This document shows, in pieces, positions 17,167-38,213 of a stretch of 38,213 bases of DNA. The stretch is taken from positions 1 to 38,213 of the forward strand of contig JAKPFT010000085.1 in assembly GCA_029551285.1 (NCBI GenBank), read 5' to 3'. Under the pieces are notes generated by a model. That model had not been told where the DNA came from, made no database searches, and saw only the letters and a program-made list of their open reading frames with translations. The position numbers and the translations under genes were made by a program. The stretch is from a bacterium. GTDB taxonomy: Bacteria; Ratteibacteria; UBA8468; B48-G9; DSTR01. Within the stretch, counting starts at the first letter, position 1; each line of letters begins with the position of its first letter.

Positions 17167-17511
17167 TGTTAAAATTCTGAGTTGTTTTTTTAGTCTTTTT
17201 TTGTGGCTCAATGGTTCTGCAATTCTTTATCTCCCTCCCCTTCCTCCCACACTGTCAAAAAAGGAAGGGAATAACTGGCGAACGATTTGCGAAGGCACAG
17301 TTACAAGACAAGACGAAAAGCGGCAGCGCTCGGTAAGCGGACCGGATAAGTCCATCCGGGACGCAATACCTTACTCGGCGGTGTCTGAGCTCGCCAGATG
17401 GCGAATGAGTTCGCCGAGCTACCGATTTCGGCGTAGTCCTTGTCTGTGCCGGAGCACTTTGAGTGAGCCAGTTTGTTCCCTTTCTTTTCATTCCTCTTTT
17501 ATTCCTTTTTT
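17167..17511 (+). repeat. Foldback repeat, copy B, with left extension
   Basis: Complete copy. The core runs from TGTCAAAAAAGGAA (17253-17266) to 17511, where TTCCTTTTTT abuts copy C directly. About 86 bases to the left (from GTTAAAA) are also shared with copy D, so the full unit is near 345 bases. Small differences from copy A (GGCGAATGAG for GGCGAGCGAG) shorten the central hairpin, whereas the outer CTCGGCG/CGCCGAG arms are kept. It sits just upstream of the arsenic operon. Confidence 0.85.
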
Positions 17512-17814
17512 GGTTCTGCCTGTCCTTGTCTCTCTCCGCTTCCTCCCCATTGTCAAAAAAGGAAGGGGACAGCTGGCGAACGAATGGCGAAGGCACAGAT
17601 ACAAGACAAGACGAAAAGCGGCAGCGTTCGGTAAGCGGCCCGGACAATTCCATCCGGGACGCAATACCTTACTCGGCGGTGTTTGAGCTCGCCAGATGGC
17701 GAGCGAGTTCGCCGAGCAACCGATTTCGGCGTAGTCCTTGTCTGTGCCGAAGCACCTTCCAGTGAGCCAGTTTGTTCCCTTTCTTTTCATTCCTCTTTCT
17801 TCCATTTTTTGACA
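17512..17814 (+). repeat. Foldback repeat, copy C, head-to-tail with copy B
   Basis: Second unit of a direct tandem pair with a period of about 299 bases, from GGTTCTGCC at 17512. The core runs from TGTCAAAAAAGGAA (17551-17564) to TTTTTTGACA ending at 17814. The core is about 264 bases and restores the strong GCTCGCC/GGCGAGC hairpin seen in copy A. Its right end presents TTGACA (17809-17814) towards the transglutaminase-like gene. Confidence 0.85.
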
Positions 17815-17858
17815 CTACCCCTTATGTTATCATAGTGGAAACCTGCCGGGAAAGAAAA

Positions 17859-18494
17859 ATGACTGTTGAACCTGACTATTTCCGGGCCACAAGGGTCTGC
17901 GACCTTGACCATCCCCGGATTGGCCTCTTAAGCCAGCAACTGGTGGCTTCCTGCTCCACGGAGCGAGAAAAGGCTGTGGCTATCTTCAATTTTGTCCGGG
18001 AGAAAATCCTTTACCGGTTTGACTATCCAGGCACTCTGGCCTCCACCACCCTGGTCAGAAGGAAAGGCAACTGCTTTAACAAGGCCAATCTCCAGATTGC
18101 CCTGTTAAGGCGTGCCGGCATACCTGCAGCCTACGGCGTCTGCCTTATTCACCGGGAAGTCTTCCAGCCTCTGCTGCCAGAAGATATCTACCAGCTGGTC
18201 AGCGAACCCACTGTGCACGTCTACGCCTGCTGCTACTTAAAAAACTCCTGGGTCGCAGCTGACGCCACTATTGACCGGCAGACCTACGAAAATTTTTACC
18301 TCAATCAGCCTGGCTGGTTCTACGCTGACTGGGATGGCACCACCGACTACCTGTTAGCTGAGGCTCACCTGGTGGCCAAACAGGGCCTTTATGCCAACAT
18401 TGACCTTTTCCTGATGCAGCCCCCGCGTTTCTGGACCGACCAGTTGCTTGAGCGTGCCAACCAGCACCTGGAGAAACTGCTCCAGAACCCCTGA
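17859..18494 (+). CDS. Transglutaminase-like cysteine protease-fold protein
   Basis: 211-residue protein of the transglutaminase-like superfamily, often peptidases or amidases in bacteria. The catalytic triad is C72 (KGNCFNKA), H120 (PTVHVYAC) and D135 (VAADATID). No signal peptide, so a cytosolic role is likely; substrate unknown. ATG at 17859 begins the conserved part; the frame extends into the repeat upstream, but those residues are repeat-derived. The ribosome binding site is weak (GGGAAAG). The gene is isolated: the repeat lies upstream and the convergent dockerin-protein gene downstream. Confidence 0.8.
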   Translation: MTVEPDYFRATRVCDLDHPRIGLLSQQLVASCSTEREKAVAIFNFVREKILYRFDYPGTLASTTLVRRKGNCFNKANLQIALLRRAGIPAAYGVCLIHREVFQPLLPEDIYQLVSEPTVHVYACCYLKNSWVAADATIDRQTYENFYLNQPGWFYADWDGTTDYLLAEAHLVAKQGLYANIDLFLMQPPRFWTDQLLERANQHLEKLLQNP

Positions 18495-18604: not shown

Positions 18605-21523
18605 TCAATTTAGATTCAGAATTTCCTTTAAGAGAAGTATTACATCAAAAATATCAACCACGCCATCTCGGTTAATATCCCCGAGCAGAAGGTCAGGTTC
18701 GTCAAACCCTAATACGACCCTGACACAGATCACCAAATCCGCGATGTCCAGACTTCCGTCTTCGTTTAAGTCACCCCTTTGTGCGGGGATTTTCCAGAAT
18801 GTGCCATATACCTTGCTGTAATCCTGATTCCAGAAAACGAGAAAGTTATTGTTGGCATTACCTGGCACCACCGCGGGCTTTTGTTTAAAACCGGCATAGT
18901 TGGTTATCAAAAGGTCGCTTTCAAACGCGGGACCTTCTGCTGTTATCTTCTGAGCGTAAATGTATGAGTTACCGTAAGTCTGCTGCCCCTGGCTGTCCGC
19001 GTAGTCGTGCCAGAAAGCCCATTCTGTCCCATCTTTGGCCACCGCGACATCTATAATATCTCCCTCTTGCAAACTGGTTCGGGACACATAAAAGGCACTG
19101 CTTGACACGGTACCGTCTCCGTTCAGATAATTTGCCCTAACCCGGTATGAATTGATAATAGAATAACCCAGCAGATACTTGCCAGTAGTTGAGTTATAGA
19201 TTAAAGAAGGACAATCCAGACCATTGCTGTTAGGCGAGGTTGCCACTGTCTGCTCTGTCCCGAGTGAGCCGTCATTTTCCACCGTTCTTCCTTTCATATT
19301 CTTTTGCCTGTAAGAATAAACCGCCAGGAAATTATCAGAATCCGGATTGTACGCGACTGCGCCACTGTATCCGTACTCGCTATATTGGCCAATCTGGAAA
19401 AGAGGAACAACTGTATTTCCGTCCTTGTCCAGTATAATTCCCTTCCAGGCTCCGCCGTAAACATATTCGCACGCCATTACCAAATAACTTCCGGATTGGG
19501 TATTGACTGCGGCCGCCGGAAACCAGTAGTTGGCGTCAACAATAATAAATTCCTGGCCCACCTCCCGGGTTGCACCGTCAATAAAAACCCCGCGCAGTTT
19601 GGAGTCGGCAGAAAAAACCACCAGGTACTTCTGATTGACTGGATTGTAAACAACCTCTGGCTGGCGAGGTATCCAGCCTGCGGAGTAAATAAGAAATTTG
19701 CTTCCTATCACTTCTCCGTTGTCATTCAAAAAACAGCCCCAGAGTTTGTTGCTTTTCCTGGTAACTACGAGGTAACTGCTGCCCTTTGCCACCTGCGGCT
19801 GGTCATTCCACTCTGTTTCCAGTCCTGTCTCAATCTGGATAAACATCTGGAGGTCTTTTTCAATCACAGTAGCACCATCTGTGACGGAAACGGAAAAATA
19901 AAAGGCACCGGTTTCCTGGGGAGTGCCGGAAACAATGCCGGTTGCCACATCAAAATCAAGGCCTGAGGGAAGACGGCCCGAAGTAATCTGCCATTGATAC
20001 CGGTTGCCATTCCCGCCAGTGGCAGCAATGCGGTACTGGTAAGGCTGGCCAAAGGTCCCGTTGGTTAAGGCGTTCACGGAAACAGCCAAAGGAGAAGAAG
20101 CATCCAGTGTTCCATTGTTGAACAGCTTCTGTGCATAGATATTTCCACCTGACGACCAGACAAAGATTATTCCATCTCCGTCCTCAACCATCTGGTAGTC
20201 ATTGCCAACCGCCTGATTGAAAACCTGCACCCCGCCCACCGTCCACCAGCCCACCCCGTTTATGTCAATCTTTTGCACCATTATGCCATTACTAACCAGC
20301 CAGGAAACCAGAAAATTACCGTCTGAAGTGTTGATGATTCTGGGAGTGTTGCTGTCTGTGTTGCTTACCAGCATTCCATTATCCCCCCATTGGACATTGC
20401 CGCTGGCATCCACCCGCTGTGCGTATATCCGGTAACCGCTTCGGCCATCCCGCCAGACTACTATCGCACCACCCTGCCCGTCAGAAACAGCCTGAAGCTG
20501 CTCCTGCCCCCCGGAAGCGGTGCAAATCCCGACTCCGCCGTCCTGCCACATAACACTGCCCGCAGAACTGACCCTCTGGGCAAAGATGTCGCTGGTATTT
20601 TCCCCGTTGCGGTTGTCAGTCCAGAAACATATCACGCCTCCGGCTCCGTCTGGCGCCGCGTCATACGTTGCCACTACTTGATTGAGAATATTATTGGGCA
20701 AAGAAACCCTTACCCCTTCGCGGTCCCAGACCTTGGCTTCGGCCAATCTCTGAACTCTTAGAGACCTCCAGCCCGGATAAGGACCGTCCCGGGCATCCAG
20801 CCAGGCAATGACCGCTTCACCCACGCCCGTACTTATCACTTTGGAAGTATCGGCAATTGAACCTTCGCCATCGCCTCCGCCCATGCAAGAGATAGACCCG
20901 TAATCAACCACGCGTTCTCCCTGAGTATTCAGCCGAGCCGCCTTCAACCGGTTATACCACAGCCGGAATCCGGCGTACGTCCAGGAAGAAAAGATACCTC
21001 CTGCTCCATCCTGACATATGGATTCATTAGCGCCGCTGTCTCCTTCCTGCACAAGTACACCACCCAGCCCCCAGAGCAGGTTTCCTTCTCCGTCAATCCG
21101 ATTAGCCCGAACATTATCGCATTGAATACCTCCGCCGGAAGAGTCAGTCCAGGTAAAGAAAGCGCCCCCGCTTCCGTCGGATGCTGCTTTCACCCCCTGC
21201 TGTCGTTCAAACGTCACATTTTCCCATCCTCGCACAAGGACCAGGCCATTATCCTGCCAAAGGCACTCACCTGAAGAACTTAATTTCTGTCCATAGATAT
21301 CCCGGAATTTCCAGGAGGCCCCGGGCACAGTTCCCCGGCGTTCGTCCACCCAGAAAATCAGACAATATCCGTTTGGTGTCCGGACAATCTGCGGCTGAAA
21401 TTGGTTTTCCGGCGCCTCGCAAATTGCCACCGGTGAAGAGATTTGATTAGACCAGGCAAAGACCGGATGCGGGACTGAAACCAGCAGCAAGAAAAGAACC
21501 AGGAAAGTTTTCCTGAAAGTCAT
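18605..21523 (-). CDS. Secreted beta-repeat protein with Ig-like domain and C-terminal type I dockerin
   Basis: 972 residues: signal peptide 1-23 (FLVLFLLLVS, cleavage near VFA), then about 450 residues of propeller-like repeats (VSDGQGGAIVVWRDGR-type units), a putative Ig domain (FGQPYQYRIAATG to VSVTDGATVIEK, about 490-560), a second repeat region, and a type I dockerin tail (about 916-972). The dockerin has two calcium-binding repeats (DLNEDGSLDIADLV and DINRDGVVDIFDVI). Dockerins bind cohesins, but in non-cellulosomal bacteria they also tail many secreted proteins; no cohesin is in this window. AAGGAGG precedes ATG at 21523. It could be a surface-binding protein; no enzyme motif is seen. 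Confidence 0.85.
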   Translation of the reverse strand: MTFRKTFLVLFLLLVSVPHPVFAWSNQISSPVAICEAPENQFQPQIVRTPNGYCLIFWVDERRGTVPGASWKFRDIYGQKLSSSGECLWQDNGLVLVRGWENVTFERQQGVKAASDGSGGAFFTWTDSSGGGIQCDNVRANRIDGEGNLLWGLGGVLVQEGDSGANESICQDGAGGIFSSWTYAGFRLWYNRLKAARLNTQGERVVDYGSISCMGGGDGEGSIADTSKVISTGVGEAVIAWLDARDGPYPGWRSLRVQRLAEAKVWDREGVRVSLPNNILNQVVATYDAAPDGAGGVICFWTDNRNGENTSDIFAQRVSSAGSVMWQDGGVGICTASGGQEQLQAVSDGQGGAIVVWRDGRSGYRIYAQRVDASGNVQWGDNGMLVSNTDSNTPRIINTSDGNFLVSWLVSNGIMVQKIDINGVGWWTVGGVQVFNQAVGNDYQMVEDGDGIIFVWSSGGNIYAQKLFNNGTLDASSPLAVSVNALTNGTFGQPYQYRIAATGGNGNRYQWQITSGRLPSGLDFDVATGIVSGTPQETGAFYFSVSVTDGATVIEKDLQMFIQIETGLETEWNDQPQVAKGSSYLVVTRKSNKLWGCFLNDNGEVIGSKFLIYSAGWIPRQPEVVYNPVNQKYLVVFSADSKLRGVFIDGATREVGQEFIIVDANYWFPAAAVNTQSGSYLVMACEYVYGGAWKGIILDKDGNTVVPLFQIGQYSEYGYSGAVAYNPDSDNFLAVYSYRQKNMKGRTVENDGSLGTEQTVATSPNSNGLDCPSLIYNSTTGKYLLGYSIINSYRVRANYLNGDGTVSSSAFYVSRTSLQEGDIIDVAVAKDGTEWAFWHDYADSQGQQTYGNSYIYAQKITAEGPAFESDLLITNYAGFKQKPAVVPGNANNNFLVFWNQDYSKVYGTFWKIPAQRGDLNEDGSLDIADLVICVRVVLGFDEPDLLLGDINRDGVVDIFDVILLLKEILNLN

Positions 21524-21824: not shown

Positions 21825-22916
21825 TTACTGGACAGCACCGGCAAACGGGTAGAAATTCAGGGCTGTCTCAAACATGGTGACGATATTTTCCGGCGGGGTG
21901 CCGGCCTGAATACTGTGAGAGGGGCCAAAGATATACCCACCCCCTTTGCCCAGCACGGTAATCAGCCTTTCCACCTCCTGCCGGACCTCCTCGGAAGAAC
22001 CAAAGGGCAGCGTCTTCTGGACACTCACGCCTCCCTGAAAGGAAAGTCGCTGGCCAAACCGTGTTTTAAGTTCTACCGGATCCATGCCCCGCGCATCCAA
22101 CTGCAAACTCTGAAGAACATCCATACCTATCTCCATCAATTCTGGCACCAGTTCTATTACTGCGCCGTCAGAATGATATATTACCCGCGCTCCGTAGTGG
22201 TGAATTACATTATTCAGCCGGAGATGGTGCGGCCTGATGTACCTGGCCCAGAGCGAAGGCGAGACCAAAAGTCCCTGCTGGCCGGCCAGGTCGTCAGCGG
22301 TAAAAGCCAGGTCAATCCTTCCGCGACCGGCTTCAAGTATCGCTTGAAAGTGCGCCACCATAAAATCCGCCACCCTGCTCAGTAAGTAGTCAGCCAGTTC
22401 TGGATTGACCATGAAGTCAAGCAGTAGTTGCTGGAAACCGCGGAGGTACCAGGCCGTTTCAAAGATATTGCCGTTGGCGATCATCACTGCCCAGTTACCT
22501 GTCCTGTCCAGAGCCGCCAGTTGCTCGCCAATGACCTGGTAATCAAAAAACTCTTTCCGGGGCCACGGGTAGTTCTGTAACTGGTCAATGGTTTGAAATT
22601 CTTTCAGTGGATGGCAAACGATTTCTTCATAACTATCCAGGCTGTTAGCAACCGGCTGACGAACCACTCCCCAGATGTCAGTGCCTTCCGGTAAAGACGG
22701 ACCGCGGTAAGCCGGAGACACCATCCTGATATCCAGGAAACTTTTCAGATACTCTTCCACACCGATCCCGCGTGTCTGCTGCAGGTACTTCGCCAGGGCC
22801 TGCCGGGCCGGGGGATTAATCCCGGCGCAAACCATAGCCATGGGAATACGGTCTGTCTCCTGGTGCGCCAGTGCCAGATTTACTCTCTCCCGCGCAGAAA
22901 GCTTTTCCCGCTTCAT
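21825..22916 (-). CDS. Uroporphyrinogen decarboxylase-superfamily protein (1)
   Basis: 363-residue cytosolic TIM-barrel protein of the UroD/MtaA/CmuA superfamily. Family hallmarks: RERVNLALAHQETDRIP at the N-terminus, DDLAGQQGLLVSPSLW (208-223), and the C-terminal GYIFGPSHSIQAGTPPENI. In corrinoid:thiol methyltransferases the zinc site is His-x-Cys; here it reads HSDG (248-251), so zinc is probably not bound that way. It is last in the sugar operon, 53 bases after a second UroD-like gene. Such proteins are common in carbohydrate clusters of these bacteria, with no established reaction. Heme synthesis is unlikely. Confidence 0.82.
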   Translation of the reverse strand: MKREKLSARERVNLALAHQETDRIPMAMVCAGINPPARQALAKYLQQTRGIGVEEYLKSFLDIRMVSPAYRGPSLPEGTDIWGVVRQPVANSLDSYEEIVCHPLKEFQTIDQLQNYPWPRKEFFDYQVIGEQLAALDRTGNWAVMIANGNIFETAWYLRGFQQLLLDFMVNPELADYLLSRVADFMVAHFQAILEAGRGRIDLAFTADDLAGQQGLLVSPSLWARYIRPHHLRLNNVIHHYGARVIYHSDGAVIELVPELMEIGMDVLQSLQLDARGMDPVELKTRFGQRLSFQGGVSVQKTLPFGSSEEVRQEVERLITVLGKGGGYIFGPSHSIQAGTPPENIVTMFETALNFYPFAGAVQ

Positions 22917-22969
22917 CGTTTCGCCTGTTCCAGGCTACCGAGGGCAAGACTTGCTGCCTGCTGAGATTC

Positions 22970-24061
22970 TTACCAGCGGAAAGCCAGCTCGTGGGCAAGG
23001 TCCAGGTAGAGTTTGACTGCCTGCGGCGGTACATTATAGGGAATGTGGTTGCCAATGCACATCATGTAACCGCGGCACATCCGGCCAGTCTCCACCATTT
23101 TTTCCACCATATTCCTGATCTCTTCCGGCCGGTTACGCATCAGCACCCGGTTGTCCCCTTCTCCGGCTAAGAAACAGTCTCTGTATTTTCTGGCAATGTT
23201 TTTGTAGTTGGTGTAAGGCTCGCTGATCACCCCCAGCGCGCCGCAGGCCATAATGTCATCCACGAAAACGTCCAGGCAGCCATCAGACATAAAAATAACG
23301 TGTTTGCCGGCAGCCTTCACGATGGACCAGAATTCTTCATACCTGGGAAAAATGTGCCGGCGCATCCACTTCGGGTGGCAGACCGGACCGCTGGAGATAA
23401 CGATATCGTCGTGGCAGACGACAAAGTTAACCGGCAGCCGGGCAAAGGCCCGGAAGACCCGACGGTTGATTTCTGCAAATTCTTCCAGAATCCGCTCAAA
23501 TTCTGGCTCAAGACAGATGGAGAGAAAATTCTCGTAGCCAAAGACCAGCAGCGGCCACATAAAAAGGGTGTTGTAAAAACCAACCATGGTGGCGGAACCT
23601 TCCGGCGCTTTCTCGCCCCATTCAGCAGGATAGTTCTGGCGAAAACGCTGGTAGATAACCTCTTCACTCCGGTAATCGCCATCCACCACTACATTCCAGC
23701 CGGTGAAATCTCCCTGTTCTAACGGACTGAAGCGCAGCATCTCCTCCTGGCTGGAAAACCGCTGGCTGGCGATTTCCTGCTGCCAGTAGTCCCGGTAAGC
23801 ATTTCCCCAGAAGCCTTTCCCTTTATCCTTCTGGGTCTCCGGCCTGGGCAGTGGCTGGTCGGTGGCCGGTGCTGGAAGGTAAAGATACGGGTAAAGCTGG
23901 TTCAATTTTTCTATGCAGGTTTTCGGGCGCTGGTAGTAGTTTATTCCGGTAATGTAGGTAGCCGCATCCGGATTGGACCAGTGTTCCCAGTGAATGATGT
24001 GGGCTGGTCCCCGGCCCAAAAAAGTTTCGTATCTGGGGTCTTCTTCCTGTTTCTCGCTCAT
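22970..24061 (-). CDS. Uroporphyrinogen decarboxylase-superfamily protein (2), divergent
   Basis: 363 residues, distantly related to the following gene product. The central and C-terminal UroD features remain: VCHDDIVISSGPVCHPKW (215-232), then IFMSDG (256-261) where MtaA-type enzymes have His-x-Cys, so it also lacks the classical zinc ligands. The N-terminal third (GRGPAHIIHWEHWSNP) differs from standard UroD. Its ATG overlaps the TGA of the GH36 gene (ATGA), so the two are translationally coupled. Substrate unknown. Confidence 0.75.
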   Translation of the reverse strand: MSEKQEEDPRYETFLGRGPAHIIHWEHWSNPDAATYITGINYYQRPKTCIEKLNQLYPYLYLPAPATDQPLPRPETQKDKGKGFWGNAYRDYWQQEIASQRFSSQEEMLRFSPLEQGDFTGWNVVVDGDYRSEEVIYQRFRQNYPAEWGEKAPEGSATMVGFYNTLFMWPLLVFGYENFLSICLEPEFERILEEFAEINRRVFRAFARLPVNFVVCHDDIVISSGPVCHPKWMRRHIFPRYEEFWSIVKAAGKHVIFMSDGCLDVFVDDIMACGALGVISEPYTNYKNIARKYRDCFLAGEGDNRVLMRNRPEEIRNMVEKMVETGRMCRGYMMCIGNHIPYNVPPQAVKLYLDLAHELAFRW

Positions 24062-26079
24062 CGTCTCTCCTCCGGTTTTACTTCCGCATACCGTAACAGC
24101 AGGCTTTTAGAAACCGCCGGTATCGCCACTTTCAAGCGGGCTAAATTTTTCCCCTGCACCCGTTTGCGTGGCTTCTCCCGGTAATCAGGGCTTAAACTTA
24201 CCTCATAGTCCTTCCCGGGGTCAATCCCCTTCAACCGCACTTCTGCCTGCGGGAAGGGGCTTTCGTGCCGGCGGAAAAACATGGCTATCCCGGCGTGAAG
24301 GTCCTGACGGTGAAACTGCCAGCCGCACCAGTCGTGAAAGGCCGCACTCAGCGGCATCAGCAGATAAAAATCACCGGTAAAATACGGCCTGAGACTTTTC
24401 CATTCAAGGACAGCCGCTTTTAAGGTTTCCACCGGGAAATCCCGGTCAAAGATTACTTTTCCGGAAGAGAGGGCTTCCTGCCAGGTTAAAGTTTTCTTCT
24501 GGAGAAGGACTTTCTCTTCAAGATGGTAACCCAGGGTAAATCCACCCATCATAGCGCTTCTCATCCCGTAAGGAGAAAGTGTCCAGCAGCCTCCGCCGAA
24601 AAGGGGCACCCAGCGCGCCAGGCCTGCCTTCAGACACTGCGAACCCACGAAGATTCCCGGACCGGTGGAAAGCCCGCCAATGTCCAGGAAGTCGCTGGGC
24701 CACAGCGGCAGGGAACGGGAGAGTGTTTCCAGGTCAATTCTTCTGCCCCCGCTGGAGCAATTATCAATCAGCAGATGCGGGAATTCTTCCCGCAGGCTGT
24801 CCCACAACCGGTAAAGTCCTTCTATGTACCTGATTTCTGTGATACCCTGACGGTTGGCGGCATCAGCCGCCTGCCAGTAGGGCAGCGGATTGATGTTAAA
24901 ATCATGCCGGTAAATGTCAAGGCCTACCCTGGAAATGTGTCTGGAGATAATCTTCCGGATAAAGGCCAGGGCTTCTCTCTCTCCCAGGTTCAGCAGAAAA
25001 TTGTCCGGGTCATCCTTCCGGCTCAGCAAAAACTGCGGATGCTGTCGGTGAAGAAGTGAGTTTTTCCTGACCCTCTCCGGCTCAAACCAGAGAAGAAACT
25101 TCATCCCTTTCCTGTGAGTCAGGTCAGCAATCGGTTTCAGGCCGCGGGGAAACTTCTGCCGGTTGACCTGCCAGGAACCGACCTCCTGCCACCACTGGCC
25201 GCTTCCGCCGTACCAGCAAGCGTCAATCCAGTGAGTGTCCAGACCGGCCCGGGAGGCATTCTCCAGCGCCGCCAGTTCCAGGGATTCTCTGGCCTTCCCG
25301 GTGAGATAAAAATACCACTGAAGACAGCAGGCAGCCGGAGGCATCACTATTCTCTTGCCTGTACGGGGAAGGTAGTAGCGCAGGAGAATCTGCCGCAACA
25401 AATTGTTTCCGGTCTCCGGCTCGTGGCCATCCCAGGGAAGTAAAAGGAAACGGGGCTGCCTGATTTTCTCCCCGGGATAAAGGAAGAAGCGGGTGGTCTC
25501 CATTCCAGCGGTAATCCTCAGTGAAGACTCTGAACGGACAAGTTGCACCTTCCACTGGCCGGACCAGCCTACCCCCAGGATAAAGCCACCGGTGCTTCTC
25601 TGAACATTGAGAAAGGGAAGCACCCCGTTGGAAGAGCGGCCACCATCCGGTTTCAAGACCAGAGAAGAATTGACCGGCAAGTTCGCCTGCCGTGGAAGAA
25701 AATCGTCCATCTCACACTGGCTACCCCGGGCATAATGGACAATAATTTTTTCTCCTTTCTCAACCGGAAAGAATAGGTCCAGCGGCCGGATGTCTTCAAT
25801 TAAAGGTGTTCGGGTCTGGCCAGCGTTTTCCACCTCCAGCAGCCGGTCAAGACTGCCGGGAAAATCCGTAAAGGTCCGGCTGGTGAAAATCAGTTTCAAT
25901 CCGCTGGCCGGGTGAGTGAAGATTTGCTTGAAAACGACACTGGCAGTTGTCTCTTCTCGCCAGAGACGCCGCTTCAGAAAGGGCGCCAGGTGTTGGTAAG
26001 GCTTTCCACCCAGGGTAAAAGAAAGGGAAGGGTTTTCAACTTCTGCTTTTATCCAGCTGTCCTGTTTTTTTTGTTCCAT
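24058..26079 (-). CDS. GH36-family alpha-galactosidase-like glycoside hydrolase
   Basis: 673-residue enzyme without a signal peptide, so probably cytosolic. An N-terminal beta-sandwich (about 1-240) precedes the TIM barrel. The nucleophile is D393 (IYRHDFNINPLPYW) and the acid/base D463 (WPSDF), with CSSGGRRIDLETL (441-453) as the family's glycine-rich strand. It would retain stereochemistry and hydrolyse alpha-galactosides or similar sugars. It shares an ATGA overlap with the downstream UroD-like gene, so their products probably act together. The 26-base gap to the upstream gene supports one operon. Confidence 0.88.
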   Translation of the reverse strand: MEQKKQDSWIKAEVENPSLSFTLGGKPYQHLAPFLKRRLWREETTASVVFKQIFTHPASGLKLIFTSRTFTDFPGSLDRLLEVENAGQTRTPLIEDIRPLDLFFPVEKGEKIIVHYARGSQCEMDDFLPRQANLPVNSSLVLKPDGGRSSNGVLPFLNVQRSTGGFILGVGWSGQWKVQLVRSESSLRITAGMETTRFFLYPGEKIRQPRFLLLPWDGHEPETGNNLLRQILLRYYLPRTGKRIVMPPAACCLQWYFYLTGKARESLELAALENASRAGLDTHWIDACWYGGSGQWWQEVGSWQVNRQKFPRGLKPIADLTHRKGMKFLLWFEPERVRKNSLLHRQHPQFLLSRKDDPDNFLLNLGEREALAFIRKIISRHISRVGLDIYRHDFNINPLPYWQAADAANRQGITEIRYIEGLYRLWDSLREEFPHLLIDNCSSGGRRIDLETLSRSLPLWPSDFLDIGGLSTGPGIFVGSQCLKAGLARWVPLFGGGCWTLSPYGMRSAMMGGFTLGYHLEEKVLLQKKTLTWQEALSSGKVIFDRDFPVETLKAAVLEWKSLRPYFTGDFYLLMPLSAAFHDWCGWQFHRQDLHAGIAMFFRRHESPFPQAEVRLKGIDPGKDYEVSLSPDYREKPRKRVQGKNLARLKVAIPAVSKSLLLRYAEVKPEERR

Positions 26080-26105
26080 TGGCTGGACGATTTTTCCTTA
26101 CTATT

Positions 26106-27917
26106 TTACTCCTGGCCTGCTCCTAATTCTTGCAGGAGAATATCTCCTAACTCCGGATGGTCAATGAAAATGGTAAAGGGGCAGAGGCTCAAACAGCGGG
26201 AACCAGCCTGCCGGACAGCCCGCAGTTCCTGCTGGAACCTTTCCACAGGTTTGCTGATACCTGGCCGGTCAAGGTAGATGCCCACAAAGGGAATACCTCG
26301 GGGTCGACCGTAATAATCCTTATCCCGTTGGACCACTACCCTGGTGTACTGGCTCACCTTCTCCAGGGGCCAGAAAGGCTCAAAGTACCAGGCCACGGTC
26401 TGGCAGCAGTAATCAACCTTCAGCCGGTTGCCATAAAGTGGGTTAGGGATAAAGGTCGGATAGATGTGGGTGACGAATTTCAAGGAGGGATAAAGACTCT
26501 GAAGGTAGTCAATCAGGGTATGATAGAAATCAACGAGCGTCTCCAGAGAAAACTGTTCCCGGGCTTTTTCCTCCGGTATTTTTTCTTTCAGGTTTTTCCG
26601 GTAATATTCCTGAAACAAACTTTCCGAAACCGGGCAGCGGCAACCGCGGTAGTTCTTGTAGCCGAAATAGTCAAAGGCAATCCCGGTCAAGCCTGGCGAT
26701 TCTTTCAGCACCTGGAGCAATCTCTCCTGGCACCAGGCCACCACTTCCGGCCGATGGAAACACAGAAATTCGTTGATATCCACATCGTGCTGGGGACTTA
26801 CCGGTTCGCCACCATGCTGATATGGTGGCCGGCCCGGAGTTTTATCAGCCTTAATCCTGGCGGCTTTCGCTTCCTCTTCCGGGCTGACTTTCTGCCACCA
26901 CTCCTGGTTTTCCTTCTGACCGATGATGTGAAACCAGTAATAAATTTCTATACCCTGAGCGTTAGCCTTCGGAATGAGTTCATTGAGATAGTTAGCTGGC
27001 GCATTAATCATCAGGGCGGTAAACCCGAGTTTTTTTGCGACGGACAAAAGTTTCTCCTGGTCCTTCACGGCTGCTGACCAGCCGCCCCGCCAGATTTTTT
27101 CTTTTTTCTCAGGCGGTGCGCCAGCCACAAACTCCATCGTCTGCCACCGGGAAGGGATGTGGCACTCCACAATACCCATCACCGGCCAGGTCCAGTAAAC
27201 CCTTTCTGTGTAAGGGCCGGTGCGCCACACCCGGCCAAGGTGCGCCTTCCAGATATCCCCGGGCTTTACGGGGAAAGTGCGCAGGAAAGGCTTCAAACTG
27301 GACCAGGGGACGGCCAGTTCCACTGACCAGCCTGTATCCTTATCGGTAAAGTCGTTCAGGGTACCCAGGATGTGCACCGCACTCACCACGCCCGGACAGG
27401 ACCATTCATGATGATAAACCCGGTCAACCGGAGACTGCTGCAGAGAATTTTTTCCGCTGGTGAAGAAACAGTCAAATATGGAATTGAAGGGGTTGACATG
27501 GAACTCCACGTAATTGCGGCCGTCAGCGTCCGGGTCCAGGATAACCTTGAGAAAGGTGTCGCTGCCCATAATCTCGGATTCACTCCGGGGAAAAACCAGG
27601 GGGGCGCCATAGCGCCTTTTCAAATCCACGGTGGCCCAGACGTTCGGGTCCTGAAAAAAGGCGCCTACATAAAGAAAGTTATCGTCCCACAATAATCTCG
27701 GTTCGGAAACAAAAAGCGGTGGCTCTCCAGTCACGATGTCCGCCAGTTTGACCACCGGCGCTTTTTCCCAGTCTGATTCTGTCAGCTGGCCATCAATGGT
27801 AATCTTACCCGTAGCCTTCTGACACTGGTAGACAGCCCCTTCCAGCAGAAAGGTTAAACCCACCAGCCCGGTCAGAGAAAAAATCAAGACCGCCCTGGCC
27901 AGTTTTTTGCCCTTCAT
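26106..27917 (-). CDS. Exported CBM9-like domain plus TIM-barrel glycosidase-like protein
   Basis: 603 residues: signal or anchor (about 6-26, AVLIFSLTGLVGLTFLL), a CBM9/DOMON-like sugar-binding domain (about 30-230; ITIDGQLTESDWEKA, SVELAVPWSSL), and a C-terminal barrel (about 240-600) resembling uncharacterised GHL-type glycosidases. Candidate acids include IAFDYFGY and HDVDINEF; no family could be assigned. ATG at 27917 is chosen because GGAG lies five bases upstream and it overlaps the previous stop as TGATG. It probably binds polysaccharide at the cell surface and may hydrolyse it. Confidence 0.7.
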   Translation of the reverse strand: MKGKKLARAVLIFSLTGLVGLTFLLEGAVYQCQKATGKITIDGQLTESDWEKAPVVKLADIVTGEPPLFVSEPRLLWDDNFLYVGAFFQDPNVWATVDLKRRYGAPLVFPRSESEIMGSDTFLKVILDPDADGRNYVEFHVNPFNSIFDCFFTSGKNSLQQSPVDRVYHHEWSCPGVVSAVHILGTLNDFTDKDTGWSVELAVPWSSLKPFLRTFPVKPGDIWKAHLGRVWRTGPYTERVYWTWPVMGIVECHIPSRWQTMEFVAGAPPEKKEKIWRGGWSAAVKDQEKLLSVAKKLGFTALMINAPANYLNELIPKANAQGIEIYYWFHIIGQKENQEWWQKVSPEEEAKAARIKADKTPGRPPYQHGGEPVSPQHDVDINEFLCFHRPEVVAWCQERLLQVLKESPGLTGIAFDYFGYKNYRGCRCPVSESLFQEYYRKNLKEKIPEEKAREQFSLETLVDFYHTLIDYLQSLYPSLKFVTHIYPTFIPNPLYGNRLKVDYCCQTVAWYFEPFWPLEKVSQYTRVVVQRDKDYYGRPRGIPFVGIYLDRPGISKPVERFQQELRAVRQAGSRCLSLCPFTIFIDHPELGDILLQELGAGQE

Positions 27918-29254
27918 CACCACTCCTTCAGAGAAAAGGCTTTAACTTCTATGTTCTCAAAACTCACCCCTTCTCTTTCCGCAAAGAATAGAAGACAGTT
28001 TCCGCGTGTTTCCGGGCAGCGGTTAATCAAACATCTTTTTCCGGCAATCTCCACATCAAACAAATCTCCGGTAAGTAGAATATGAAGAAAGAAAGGTTCC
28101 GTCAAGGCCACTTTTTCCAGCCTTTCCTGGCCCAGGCTCATGCTGGAGGTGGCCAGATCAAAAACCAGCGGACAGCCTGAGGCCATCTTCTCCTGACACC
28201 TGAGACCAAAACCGAAGCGGGCGGCTTTCCCCTGCGGTATCACCTGGCATCGGAAACTGTAATTTTCTGACAGCGGGTGCCAGCAGACTTCCGCCGGTCC
28301 TTTTTCCGCGGAGAGCCTGACCGGTCCCTGGCCGGGAAAACCACTCCCGGAGTAAAGCGGGAGCATCTCCGGAACAAATCTTGTGCCCAGCGTGCCATCA
28401 GGGTTCTGGACCAACTCCCGGAAAAGAAGCTGGCCGCCCCACTGAAGCTGGCCATCATTTTTGTTGCCAGCCCGCGTACCGACCCAGGCCACGCCCAGAC
28501 GCCGTCCGGGCCCAAAGGCCGCCGTTTTCATCACCGCTTCCAGCCGGCTGCCCGGGCAATCCACTCCGGGTTTAACCCAGGGACCGAAAGGGTGCCTGGA
28601 AAACCGGTACCTGGTGGTCAGATTAAGACCACAAAGCAGGTAGTAATAGCCGTTCCAGAAAAAGTAGTCCGGACACTCCGGAACTATAACTTCCTCCGGG
28701 ATAAAAAATGGTTCTTCCACCTGCCAGGACCATAAGTCACAACTACTTAACCGCAGCAGACAGCCCTGACCGGAAGAATATGGTTTCTCCAGCATCGCCG
28801 TGACCAGCATTTGAAACCGGCCAGGCTCAGATTCAAAGACAAACGGGTCCCGGAAATGGTAGGGAGAAAAACCGGCTGGCGGAGAAAGGAAGGGATTGGG
28901 TCTGGCTTTCTCAAAGTGAACGCCGTCAGGGCTGACCGCATGGCTCAGGTGCTGGGTGCGGTCTGTTTTCCTGGTGGCGTAAAAAGCGTGGTAACGACCC
29001 TGGTGATAAAAAACTGAGCCGGTGCAGATTGACCCTTCCCAGTCTTCGGTAATGGCCACAGCCAGCGGGTGCTGCTGCCAGTGAACCAGGTCCGTGGTGG
29101 AAAGGTGGGCCCACTGATGGCCGCCCAGCCCGGCCCGACTGCTGTGGTGTCCCTGGTCCAGCAGGTAGTAAACATGAAAAATACCCTGGTGGTAAAAGGG
29201 CATGGCATCACCGGCAAAGAAATCGCCGGCTGGTTTGAAGTATTGCCGGCGCAT
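27917..29254 (-). CDS. GH32-family-like beta-propeller glycosidase
   Basis: 445 residues: five-bladed propeller (about 1-320) plus a C-terminal beta-sandwich, the GH32 layout of fructosidases. The nucleophile position is D16 in AGDAMPFYHQG, replacing the usual WMNDPNG; the RDP motif is R135-D136-P137 (HFRDPF), and the acid/base glutamate is E193 (VPECPDYF). All three acids are present, but the altered first motif suggests a substrate other than ordinary sucrose or levan. No signal peptide. TGATG coupling to the next gene and a 3-bp gap from the FGGY kinase place it in the sugar operon. Confidence 0.82.
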   Translation of the reverse strand: MRRQYFKPAGDFFAGDAMPFYHQGIFHVYYLLDQGHHSSRAGLGGHQWAHLSTTDLVHWQQHPLAVAITEDWEGSICTGSVFYHQGRYHAFYATRKTDRTQHLSHAVSPDGVHFEKARPNPFLSPPAGFSPYHFRDPFVFESEPGRFQMLVTAMLEKPYSSGQGCLLRLSSCDLWSWQVEEPFFIPEEVIVPECPDYFFWNGYYYLLCGLNLTTRYRFSRHPFGPWVKPGVDCPGSRLEAVMKTAAFGPGRRLGVAWVGTRAGNKNDGQLQWGGQLLFRELVQNPDGTLGTRFVPEMLPLYSGSGFPGQGPVRLSAEKGPAEVCWHPLSENYSFRCQVIPQGKAARFGFGLRCQEKMASGCPLVFDLATSSMSLGQERLEKVALTEPFFLHILLTGDLFDVEIAGKRCLINRCPETRGNCLLFFAEREGVSFENIEVKAFSLKEW

Positions 29255-29257
29255 TGC

Positions 29258-30772
29258 TTATTGAGATTTCCTGATTTTCGGTTCTGCCATCGCAGTGAGA
29301 AGCGGTTTCACGGCCGAATAAATTTTCTGGAAAATTTCGTACTTTTCCTGATAAATCCTGTGACGCCGCGCGTCCGGGTAAAAAGTCTTTTCTTCCTGGA
29401 TGAAAAGAGCCGCGGCTTCGGAAAAGGAGCCGTAGAGACCGCAGGCCAGCCCTGCCAGCATGGCACAACCAGCCAGTCCGGCTTCCGTCACCCTGGGCCG
29501 GGTAAAGGGAAAACCAAAGATATCCGCATGAATCTGCAGCCAGGCGTCAGAGCTGGCGCCGCCTCCTGAAGCCAGACACTCCTTCACCGGAATACCCAGA
29601 CGCTTCAGGGAAGCCATCCCTTTCAGAAAATAGAAACTGGTTCCTTCCATAATTGCCTTGAGAATTTCGCCCCGGCTGGTGGTAGTTTTAAGACCGAGGA
29701 TTACTCCGGCTGTTTCTTTCACATAGACCGGCCACTGGGGTGGTTCAAAATGGGGCAGAACAAAAAGACCGGTAGGCTGCTCTGGTATCTCCTGGTTCAA
29801 TCTCCGGTAGATGTCTGCTGAGGCGGATTCGGAAGAGGCAAAGGTGTCCCGAAACCAGCGCACCAGCAGGCCAGCCTGATGGTAAAGGAAGGAAACGACC
29901 AGACCAGGGACCACATGGTTTTCCATATTCAACTTTTCTGGCAGTAACTTCAGCGGGTCGGCTAAGGGAGAATAAACCGGCGCCAGACACTCGTAGGTGC
30001 CCAGACCGCAGACAAGTTTGCCTGGCGCGATAGCCCCGCAGCCAAGAGCGTTCAGACACTGGTCATGGCCGCCGGAGACAAGGAGAAGACCTCCCGGCAA
30101 ATTCAATTCTTCAGTTAGAGAAGGCGCGATCTTACCCACGACCTTTCCCGCCGGAACTATCCGGGCCAGTTTTTCCCTGTCCAGACCGCTCCAGCTCAGT
30201 AAAGGCTCTGACCAGTCCTGCCGGGAAAAATCAAACAGCAGCGTGCGGCTGGCCAGAGAATTGGTCGTGACCGGTTCGGCCCCCAGCAGAAAATTCACTA
30301 AATCCGCCCAGAGCAGAAAATAATCCGCCTTCCGGTACAACTGCGGCTGGTGCTCCCTTATCCAGAGAAGTTTAGGCAGGGATAAATGGGGACCGGGTAG
30401 ATTACAGTTAATCCGGTAGAAATTTTTCAGACCGAATTCTCTTACCAGTGCCTGGCTGTACTGACTTCCCCGGGTGTCAAAAGAAAGAATCGCTGGCCCC
30501 AAAATTTCCCTGTCGGCACTCACCGGAATAAAAGCTTCGCCAATAGAACTGACCGACATGGCTACCGGTTTATCCTTTCCGGCCGCAACCGCAACCTGGC
30601 TTATCACCTGCTTGACTTTATCCCAGACGAGTTGGCTATCCAGCTGGGCCCGGCCAGGTCGCGGTCTTTCAGGTGTGTATTCCCGGTAGGCTGAGGACAG
30701 GCACCGACCGTTTATAGAAAAAACAGCGGCCTTGCAGCCAGAGGTACCAACATCAACCCCTAAAAGGCTCAT
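29258..30772 (-). CDS. FGGY-family carbohydrate kinase (xylulokinase-like)
   Basis: 504-residue cytosolic sugar kinase. The N-terminal ATPase-fold phosphate loop is DVGTSGCKAAVF (6-17); GGHDQCLNALGCGAI and ASGGGASSDAWLQIHADI are the C-terminal family signatures. Xylulokinase-like in length, but the sugar cannot be fixed from sequence. Two bases downstream of the aldolase gene and three bases upstream of the GH32-like gene. With the aldolase it would phosphorylate and cleave a released ketose. Confidence 0.92.
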   Translation of the reverse strand: MSLLGVDVGTSGCKAAVFSINGRCLSSAYREYTPERPRPGRAQLDSQLVWDKVKQVISQVAVAAGKDKPVAMSVSSIGEAFIPVSADREILGPAILSFDTRGSQYSQALVREFGLKNFYRINCNLPGPHLSLPKLLWIREHQPQLYRKADYFLLWADLVNFLLGAEPVTTNSLASRTLLFDFSRQDWSEPLLSWSGLDREKLARIVPAGKVVGKIAPSLTEELNLPGGLLLVSGGHDQCLNALGCGAIAPGKLVCGLGTYECLAPVYSPLADPLKLLPEKLNMENHVVPGLVVSFLYHQAGLLVRWFRDTFASSESASADIYRRLNQEIPEQPTGLFVLPHFEPPQWPVYVKETAGVILGLKTTTSRGEILKAIMEGTSFYFLKGMASLKRLGIPVKECLASGGGASSDAWLQIHADIFGFPFTRPRVTEAGLAGCAMLAGLACGLYGSFSEAAALFIQEEKTFYPDARRHRIYQEKYEIFQKIYSAVKPLLTAMAEPKIRKSQ

Positions 30773-30774
30773 TT

Positions 30775-31668
30775 TTAAGCCTGCCTTAAAATAGTCTGGT
30801 TACCGGCCACGGCCAGTTCTTCCTTCAGGATGGTGGTGGCCGTCCGATAAACCTCTTCCTGGGCTTTACTCACTGATCGGTCCATCCATTTTTCGTAGAC
30901 CTGTCTGATGGCTGTGGCTATGTTTACCTTGGCAATACCATTTTTGATGGCCGCCTGCAAGTACTCTTTCTGGATGCCGGTGCCGCCGTGCAGGACCAGA
31001 GGAATATCTGCAGCCTGTTGAAGACGATGGAGATGATTCAGGTCAAGCCTGGCCGGCTTTTTGGGCTGATGCCGGAGGGCTTGCGAAATCGCGCCGTGGA
31101 TATTGCCGATGGCCACGGAAAGCCAGTCCACCCCTGTTGCCCTGACAAAAAGGGCGGCCTCCTCCGGCCGGGTGAAACCGGTCCCGGAAGAAAAAATCTC
31201 CTCGTAATCCGGCAGTGCCGCGGCTTCGTGCCCCAGGACAGCTCCCAATTCGGCTTCCACCGGAACCCCCCGGCCGTGAGCCATCTCCACCACCAGCCTG
31301 GTGCAGTGGATATTTTCCCTCAGAGAGAGTCTGGAACCATCCACCATCACCGAGTGATACCCCACCTTCAGGGCTCGCGCCACAATCTCTTCAAAATCAA
31401 CCCTCTGACCGTCTTCGTCAATCACCGGCACATGGTCCAGATGTAACCGGGTAAAACCTTCCCGGCCCACCCGGAAGTATTCTTCGGCGATGGCTTCCAG
31501 GCTGCCGGCCTGAAACTTTTCCCATTCCAGACGGGCCACCATCACCAGCCCAAAGGTATTGGTATCCACCAGCGCGCTCACTACCGGCGCCATCATGGGC
31601 CGGTAAGGTATGTTGAAACCCGGCACCGCCGTACCTTTCCGCCAGGCAATCTTCACTTCAGGGTCCAT
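30775..31668 (-). CDS. Class II ketose-bisphosphate aldolase (FbaA/GatY/KbaY type)
   Basis: 298-residue zinc aldolase that splits fructose-, tagatose- or related ketose bisphosphates. The catalytic D78 and zinc ligands H79 (HLDHV), E140 (VEAELG), H191 (IGNIHG) and H227 (LVLHGGTG) fit the family. ATG at 31668 (MDPEVKIAW) is preferred; an earlier in-frame start at 31743 would overlap mgtE by about 60 bases and add residues not seen in the family. Probable first gene of the sugar operon, though mgtE is only 13 bases upstream. Confidence 0.9.
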   Translation of the reverse strand: MDPEVKIAWRKGTAVPGFNIPYRPMMAPVVSALVDTNTFGLVMVARLEWEKFQAGSLEAIAEEYFRVGREGFTRLHLDHVPVIDEDGQRVDFEEIVARALKVGYHSVMVDGSRLSLRENIHCTRLVVEMAHGRGVPVEAELGAVLGHEAAALPDYEEIFSSGTGFTRPEEAALFVRATGVDWLSVAIGNIHGAISQALRHQPKKPARLDLNHLHRLQQAADIPLVLHGGTGIQKEYLQAAIKNGIAKVNIATAIRQVYEKWMDRSVSKAQEEVYRTATTILKEELAVAGNQTILRQA

Positions 31669-37862: not shown

Positions 37863-38213
37863 GTTCAGTTAAAAACTCCCGGTTGTCTTTTAGTCTTTTC
37901 TTGTGTGTCTCAATGGTTCTGCCTGTGCTTTTGTTTCCCTGCCCTTCCTCCTACACTGTCAAAAAAGGAAGGGGACAGCTGGCGAACGAATGGCGAAGGC
38001 ACAGATACAAGACAAGACGAAAAGCGGCACCGTTCGGTAAGCGAACCGGGCAATTCCATCCGGGACGCAATACCTTACTCGGCGGTGTCTGAGCTCGCCA
38101 CCTGGCGAATGAGTTCGCCGAGCAACCGATTTCGGCGTAGTCCTTGTCTGTGCCGGAGCACCCTGAGTGAGCCAGTTTGTTCCCTTTCTTTTCATTCCTC
38201 TTTTATTCCTTTT
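37863..38213 (+). repeat. Foldback repeat, copy D, cut by contig end
   Basis: The left extension (from GTTAAAA, 37863) matches that of copy B for about 90 bases. The core starts with TGTCAAAAAAGGAA (37957-37970) and runs to the last base, stopping inside the terminal TTCCTTTTTTGACA. The central hairpin loop is CC in place of GA, and the flanking pairing (CCA with TGG) is kept. It lies upstream of the GspE-type gene. It differs from copy A at several bases, so the contig is not closing on itself. Confidence 0.85.

Follow-up and report, generated by a model that had tools for sequence, protein, structure and literature searches.

The described proteins closest to the two studied here all belong to the UroD superfamily. 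The soluble coenzyme M methyltransferases MtaA and MtbA hold their metal with His-Cys-Cys. The O-demethylases MtvB, OdmB, VdmB and MtoB are accompanied by a corrinoid protein, an activase, tetrahydrofolate (THF) enzymes and transporters for aromatic compounds; such systems are described in PMC8630106 and PMC8359953. According to PMC10418091, the zinc Cys in O-methyltransferases of the superfamily is replaced by Asp, Glu or non-ligands. The same source describes Type 1 mlp clusters, with several UroD-superfamily proteins, one corrinoid protein and one activase, in which the Mlps keep His-Cys-Cys with some exceptions. The chloromethane methyltransferase CdmB (9rui) acts on a haloalkane with its own corrinoid partner, CdmC, and requires no zinc (PMC13222342). 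HemE has the same fold. We analysed a stretch of 38,213 nucleotides (the window), which makes up all of contig C97 in the draft genome (2.72 Mb, completeness 93%) of a bacterium of the Ratteibacteria. The initial annotation saw two UroD-superfamily genes closing a sugar operon, and both, here UroD2 and UroD1, exceed the Pfam URO-D cut-off of 23.9 bits. They are the last of seven minus-strand genes running from 31668 to 21825:

22970..24061, minus strand: UroD2, 363 amino acids, UroD superfamily, MSDG type (PF01208, 49.9 bits)
23279..23290, minus strand: MSDG codons, M258-G261 of UroD2
21825..22916, minus strand: UroD1, 363 amino acids, UroD superfamily, HSDG type (PF01208, 86.7 bits)
22164..22175, minus strand: HSDG codons, H248-G251 of UroD1, replacing the HxCG of methyltransferases
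21915..21917, minus strand: His334 codon of UroD1, aligned with the third zinc-binding residue of MtaA, a Cys

We tentatively read UroD1 as a methyltransferase of the corrinoid-dependent O-demethylase (methyltransferase I, MT-I) type, which would use a corrinoid protein in trans and an O-methyl sugar-class substrate. As a whole, this explanation falls slightly short of an even chance. It is proposed because of the corrinoid operons of UroD1 relatives and the published carboxylate ligand rule. As to the substrate, the neighbouring genes allow a guess and no more: since UroD1 follows a glycoside-degradation operon, an O-methyl sugar or methoxylated carbohydrate is the likeliest class, and a plausible one.

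In a profile alignment containing both window proteins, their xSDG sites (residues 248-251 of UroD1 and 258-261 of UroD2) align with the HICG of MtaA (4ay7), as had been proposed from the sequence. His248, Asp250 and His334 of UroD1 occupy the positions of the MtaA His-Cys-Cys, and UroD2 has Met258, Asp260 and Asn338; neither protein has the ligands expected of the MtaA/CmuA family. The description of both as lacking the zinc motif is right for His-x-Cys and goes too far for UroD1, which retains His248 and carries His334 at the third-ligand site. UroD1 may therefore still have a His-Asp-His metal site. Asp250 agrees with the carboxylate-for-Cys exchange described for the O-demethylases, a likeness that is suggestive at best and insufficient alone. 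The two motifs appear to be beyond chance, because HSDG is kept in 4 of 4 UroD1 orthologues and all 69 UroD2 sequences in the alignment share the MSDG Asp.

In terms of fold, the AlphaFold 2 (AF2) models have a predicted local distance difference test (pLDDT) score of 91.9 for UroD1 and 94.0 for UroD2, and the best Foldseek and VIA rows for both are UROD and MtaA. UroD1 matches MtaA in VIA with Z 28.3, root-mean-square deviation (rmsd) 3.4 and 309 aligned residues (4ay8) or Z 28.2, rmsd 3.3 and 306 aligned (4ay7), tied with human UROD (1r3y, Z 27.8). Values for UroD2 are lower (UROD Z 20.4, MtaA Z 19.1), with a larger rmsd of 4.1-4.9. The MtaA/CmuA model TIGR01463 gives 48.5 bits for UroD1, under its cut-off of 235.4, and none for UroD2. 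A profile holding UroD1 matches CdmB with E 5.7e-4. Searched against the PDB, the UroD2 sequence had no direct match, and its profile gave two weak matches (E 0.05-0.06) to an unrelated isomerase.

Evidence for methyl transfer comes from corrinoid-protein genes. A same-strand UroD lies within 150 bases for 12 of 61 small corrinoid-protein genes, with 14 UroDs in total; another 17 corrinoid matches, within frames of 760-1333 amino acids (MetH-like by size), fall outside this flank survey. This frequency exceeds a background of 5/251 genes (p 0.0002). The types are HICG (4), HSDG (3), xDCDG (3), HLCG (2), HTDG (1) and one unassigned. Half of them (7/14) are thus of Asp type, and four are HSDG/HTDG relatives of UroD1. 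Together with the carboxylate-ligand rule of PMC10418091, this speaks against the earlier suggestion that such proteins act on something other than a methyl donor. On the same two grounds, we rejected the view that a protein lacking His-x-Cys cannot carry out methyl chemistry.

The corrinoid-adjacent HSDG/HTDG UroDs occur in Lentisphaerae, Latescibacterota and Poribacteria (loci L177, L282, L280 and L281), with an activase and THF genes in two of them (L280, L281), so that the partners of the O-demethylases are also found beside the nearest HSDG relatives of UroD1. Those two loci, both from Latescibacterota, share a run of FHSDG-UroD, corrinoid protein, HLCG-UroD, DUF1638, RACE activase, a pterin-binding-MTHFR fusion and UroD. 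Fhs is next in the run in L281, and L280 has Fhs- and CODH/ACS-like genes (assigned by eye) on the opposite side. Their FHSDG-UroDs are 36% identical to UroD1 over ~355 columns. The L281 operon is similar in composition to a Type 1 mlp cluster and differs in its Asp type and THF genes. An Armatimonadetes locus contains a corrinoid protein, DCDG-, LHSDG- and YHSDG-UroDs, DUF1638, a pterin-binding methyltransferase and, by eye, Fhs-like and MTHFR-like genes. DUF1638 (PF07796) thus shares operons with the corrinoid protein in two phyla (L281:9821-10564, L283:8632-9387), and is likely part of corrinoid methyl transfer.

In the Lentisphaerae metagenome-assembled genome of L177, the corrinoid protein lies 24 bases downstream of an HTDG-UroD and precedes Gfo/Idh, UroD2 and, one base on, a GH38 alpha-mannosidase; a DUF2961 protein and genes resembling a sugar ABC transporter (by eye) come next. 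This type of corrinoid protein is present in 49/50 genomes, all of them UroD2-bearing, a count that carries no claim of enrichment. In the class of the window, a DSDG-UroD lies upstream of the corrinoid protein by 198 bases in one genome (G028) and 20 bases in another (G032), and in a third (G030) the UroD frame at this place is broken. DSDG-clade proteins overlap UroD2 by four bases in two further genomes of the class (G004, G027).

In the tree, built with thinned UroD2 rows and proteins of at least 270 amino acids, UroD1 falls in a 17-row clade (support 96/89), which also contains four corrinoid-adjacent UroDs as well as the Armatimonadetes YHSDG and LHSDG proteins. All four corrinoid-adjacent members are identical to UroD1 at D209, H248, Asp250 and H334. 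Across the clade, the D209, H248, G251 and Q272 places are constant and H334 is kept in 16 rows; the Asp250 place is divided between Asp (12 rows) and Cys (5 rows). The residue letter alone, therefore, cannot decide the chemistry. UroD2 is in a separate clade, with no corrinoid-adjacent members.

Several observations weigh against UroD1 and its paralogues being corrinoid methyltransferases. The strongest fact against each UroD being one is the imbalance in number. In the genome of the window, PF01208 matches 40 times, in 39 frames, with Asp (22), Cys (13) or another residue (4) at the Cys place, so that the motif is by no means rare. These 39 frames compare with a single corrinoid protein, on another contig, among PlsY/GpsA-like genes. 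Among 35 genomes of the class, UroD number ranges from 2 to 39 (38 candidates were scored, and some counts are lower bounds). The methyltransferase-type corrinoid protein (PF02607) is present once in 28, twice in 1 (where one copy is a 30-residue fragment) and is absent from 6. The two numbers are uncorrelated (rho 0.13, p 0.45). UroD number instead follows genome size (rho 0.77) and Gfo/Idh number (rho 0.79; size-corrected partial rho 0.42, p 0.012). The RACo activase has 0-4 copies per genome.

Further points in the same direction concern the loci. No adjacent UroD is found for 49/61 corrinoid-protein genes, and with homologous clusters counted once the excess becomes 7/122 neighbour slots versus 5/251 in the background (p 0.065). 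L177 is the sole operon found to link UroD2 to a corrinoid protein. The seven-gene run of the window holds no gene for a transporter, corrinoid protein, activase or THF enzyme; it differs from the O-demethylase systems in having sugar neighbours and no corrinoid partner, and even the same-genus relative does not keep its arrangement. UroD2 has Met258 in place of the ligand His. The ligand argument is also not general, because CdmB needs no zinc, according to PMC13222342, and the tree is composed of sequences other than the characterised O-demethylases MtvB, OdmB, VdmB and MtoB.

The lone corrinoid protein of the class shares a conserved block with PlsY-, GpsA-, PurN- and ArgG-like genes, named by eye (contig C18 of the same genome, L116:7588-16867, and L206-L217). 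An HSDG/HTDG UroD adjoins the ArgG-like gene of that block in G014 and in the genome of the window.

The genes that precede the two UroDs in the operon are the following:

30775..31668, minus strand: class II ketose-bisphosphate-type aldolase, 297 amino acids (PF01116, 193.2 bits); the start at 31668 is the choice of the codon model
29258..30772, minus strand: FGGY carbohydrate kinase, 504 amino acids (PF00370, PF02782); nearest model xylulokinase TIGR01312, 254.2 bits, below its cut-off of 380.25
27917..29254, minus strand: GH32-like protein, 445 amino acids (PF00251, 93.7 bits; cut-off 22.1)
26106..27923, minus strand: CBM9-like protein with a C-terminal barrel-like part (PF06452, 19.7 bits, below the 23.4 cut-off)
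24058..26079, minus strand: GH36/melibiase-type glycoside hydrolase, 673 amino acids (PF02065, 124 bits; cut-off 27)

Both glycoside hydrolase (GH) neighbours, GH36 and GH32, pass the Pfam cut-offs of their catalytic domains. The barrel of the CBM9-like protein and its N-terminal signal-like stretch were assigned by eye. From aldolase to UroD1 the spacings are 2, 3, -7, 26, -4 (ATGA) and 53 bases. The joined starts and stops noted initially are thus tight at most joints, and the exception is UroD2/UroD1, with a gap and no overlap. UroD1 is probably co-transcribed with the glycoside-degradation operon.

Genes in other genomes were called with a codon-model caller, which recovered the UroD2 anchor in 79/80 loci; L196 is absent from the neighbour counts. 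These 80 loci (57-75% identical) were kept from 169 confirmed ones, and come from Kiritimatiellota, Lentisphaerae, Armatimonadota, Planctomycetota, Latescibacterota, Poribacteria, Chloroflexi, Spirochaetes, KSB1, Clostridia and Omnitrophota. Met258, Asp260, Asn338 and His339 are invariant in the 69 aligned sequences, as are H24, E26 and H217-D218-D219. UroD2 is a separate, highly conserved family without a conserved neighbour: 43/79 genes are solitary, and the most frequent neighbour is another UroD. That UroD2 is also a methyltransferase has, in our view, about one chance in three.

The scan of genes adjoining UroD2 covered 119/140, excluding very long or short proteins, UroDs missed by the caller and the GH38 of L177, which would add one. 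GH95 (5), GH38 (3) and GH4 (2) account for 10/119, and the same three families have 0 among the families listed for 119 distant control genes from the same loci (scanned from 140, drawn from 246). These families were picked post hoc, and the comparison spans those with at least 2 members, the 25 commonest being listed. Gfo/Idh (3), xylose-isomerase-like proteins (3) and AraC-type regulators (4) are also adjacent. In the genome of the window, 67 genes within two genes of Asp-type UroDs include GH123_N (5), GH42 (2) and GH36, and the families listed for 42 genes near Cys-type UroDs include no GH. In this genome too, an HCDG-UroD occurs with a DeoC/LacD-type aldolase, an amidohydrolase and an FGGY kinase (contig C23, L122:8260-16439). 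On contig C11 (L106:3080-4973), two adjacent proteins, the first with a 4Fe-4S match, lie 22 bases from an opposite-strand HTDG-UroD; Fer4 proteins are also found near other UroDs of the genome.

The UroD1 orthologues (71, 55 and 54% identical) occupy differing locations. The same-genus one (L081) is outside any sugar operon, between HD-domain-like and transglutaminase-like genes (names by eye). Another (G007) is 10 bases downstream of a GH2 gene and near another UroD, Gfo/Idh-like and enolase-like genes. A 57% identical GH36 orthologue (G013) has no UroD or kinase beside it. The expectation of sugar neighbours in relatives is therefore right in general and wrong as to linkage: neither a single sugar nor a fixed operon is seen. 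A conserved sugar-UroD operon was rejected, since the UroD1, UroD2 and GH36 relatives examined do not share one.

Asp-type UroDs may instead transfer no methyl group and have a sugar, a sugar acid or a cyclitol as substrate, which they would isomerise, epimerise, decarboxylate or cleave at a carbon bond. We find this doubtful overall, and still a serious rival, above all for UroD2. It would agree with UroD numbers that are decoupled from corrinoid proteins yet track Gfo/Idh, with the GH genes adjoining UroD2, with the aldolase and kinase of L122, and with a UroD2 that has no ligand His and keeps its invariant H24, E26, H217-D218-D219 and N338-H339. Xylose-isomerase-like and psicose-epimerase barrels appear among the non-superfamily Foldseek rows, far weaker than the UROD rows. 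However, HSDG, HTDG and DCDG UroDs adjoin corrinoid proteins, and PMC10418091 gives carboxylate ligands for O-demethylases, which both favour methyl transfer. A porphyrin or siroheme-pathway decarboxylase is very improbable. The fold is shared with HemE, as is the His at the last motif of UroD1, but the HemE model TIGR01464, with a cut-off of 302.95 bits, scores UroD1 at 30.3 and does not match UroD2, and dozens of paralogues in a single genome argue against it. HemE identity is rejected, in line with the initial view that porphyrin is not the substrate.

It is also conceivable, though unlikely, that the sugar operon has no functional tie to its last genes, and that a rearrangement moved UroD1, and perhaps UroD2, to its end while they serve an unrelated pathway. 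The same-genus UroD1 stands alone between its HD-domain-like and transglutaminase-like genes, and a homologue of the latter is still near UroD1 in the window (17772-18494), by a dispersed repeat (17226-17819). No relative examined has the operon in common, the GH36 orthologue has no UroD nearby and over half of the UroD2 genes are solitary. Against this stand the ATGA overlap of GH36 and UroD2, with UroD1 53 bases on in the same strand, and the GH2 gene 10 bases upstream of the G007 orthologue.

For the preferred O-demethylase reading of UroD1, the data establish the sequence, the class of fold, the clade and the gene neighbourhoods, while we infer the metal, the methyl transfer, the substrate and the use of a corrinoid protein in trans. 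His248, Asp250 and His334 would hold a metal, and to this metal the ether oxygen of an O-methylated substrate would bind. The methyl group would move to the Co(I) form of the genome's single corrinoid protein, provided in trans, and then pass to THF and CODH/ACS. The genome could use such a methyl group, because besides the corrinoid protein it has, on contig C43, RACo with CdhD nearby and a pterin-binding protein. UroD2 would share this setting in at least one operon, that of the Lentisphaerae locus L177 (UroD, corrinoid protein, Gfo/Idh, UroD2, alpha-mannosidase). A wider proposal, which we consider improbable, is that the Asp-type UroD paralogues, dozens per genome in Omnitrophota, Lentisphaerae, Kiritimatiellota, Armatimonadota and others, form an anaerobic system stripping O-methyl or similar groups from diverse plant and algal sugars, with one shared corrinoid carrier and the Met-x-Asp UroD2 as a common step beside GHs.

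The most puzzling finding is a bacterial class with up to ~40 UroD-fold enzymes per small genome and one corrinoid carrier. In the open-access literature, we found nothing on UroD expansion in these phyla, or on corrinoid demethylation of O-methyl sugars. If Asp-type UroDs demethylate sugars, anaerobes would have a way to use methylated sugars from plant and algal polymers, with the methyl group going to acetyl-CoA synthesis, and this corrinoid-based demethylation would be a new pathway. If they transfer no methyl, the superfamily would gain an additional chemistry. In either case, "no Cys" should not be taken as "not a methyltransferase".

The dispersed repeat of the window is present at 1-232, 17226-17819 and 37930-38213, in copies of 232-284 nucleotides that are 79-95% identical, arranged as an inner tandem pair plus one copy per contig end. 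The inner pair adjoins the transglutaminase-like gene, homologue of the gene touching the same-genus UroD1, and may mark a rearrangement. Between this gene and UroD1 there is a protein of 972 amino acids (18605-21523) that carries a putative Ig domain and also matches type I dockerin.

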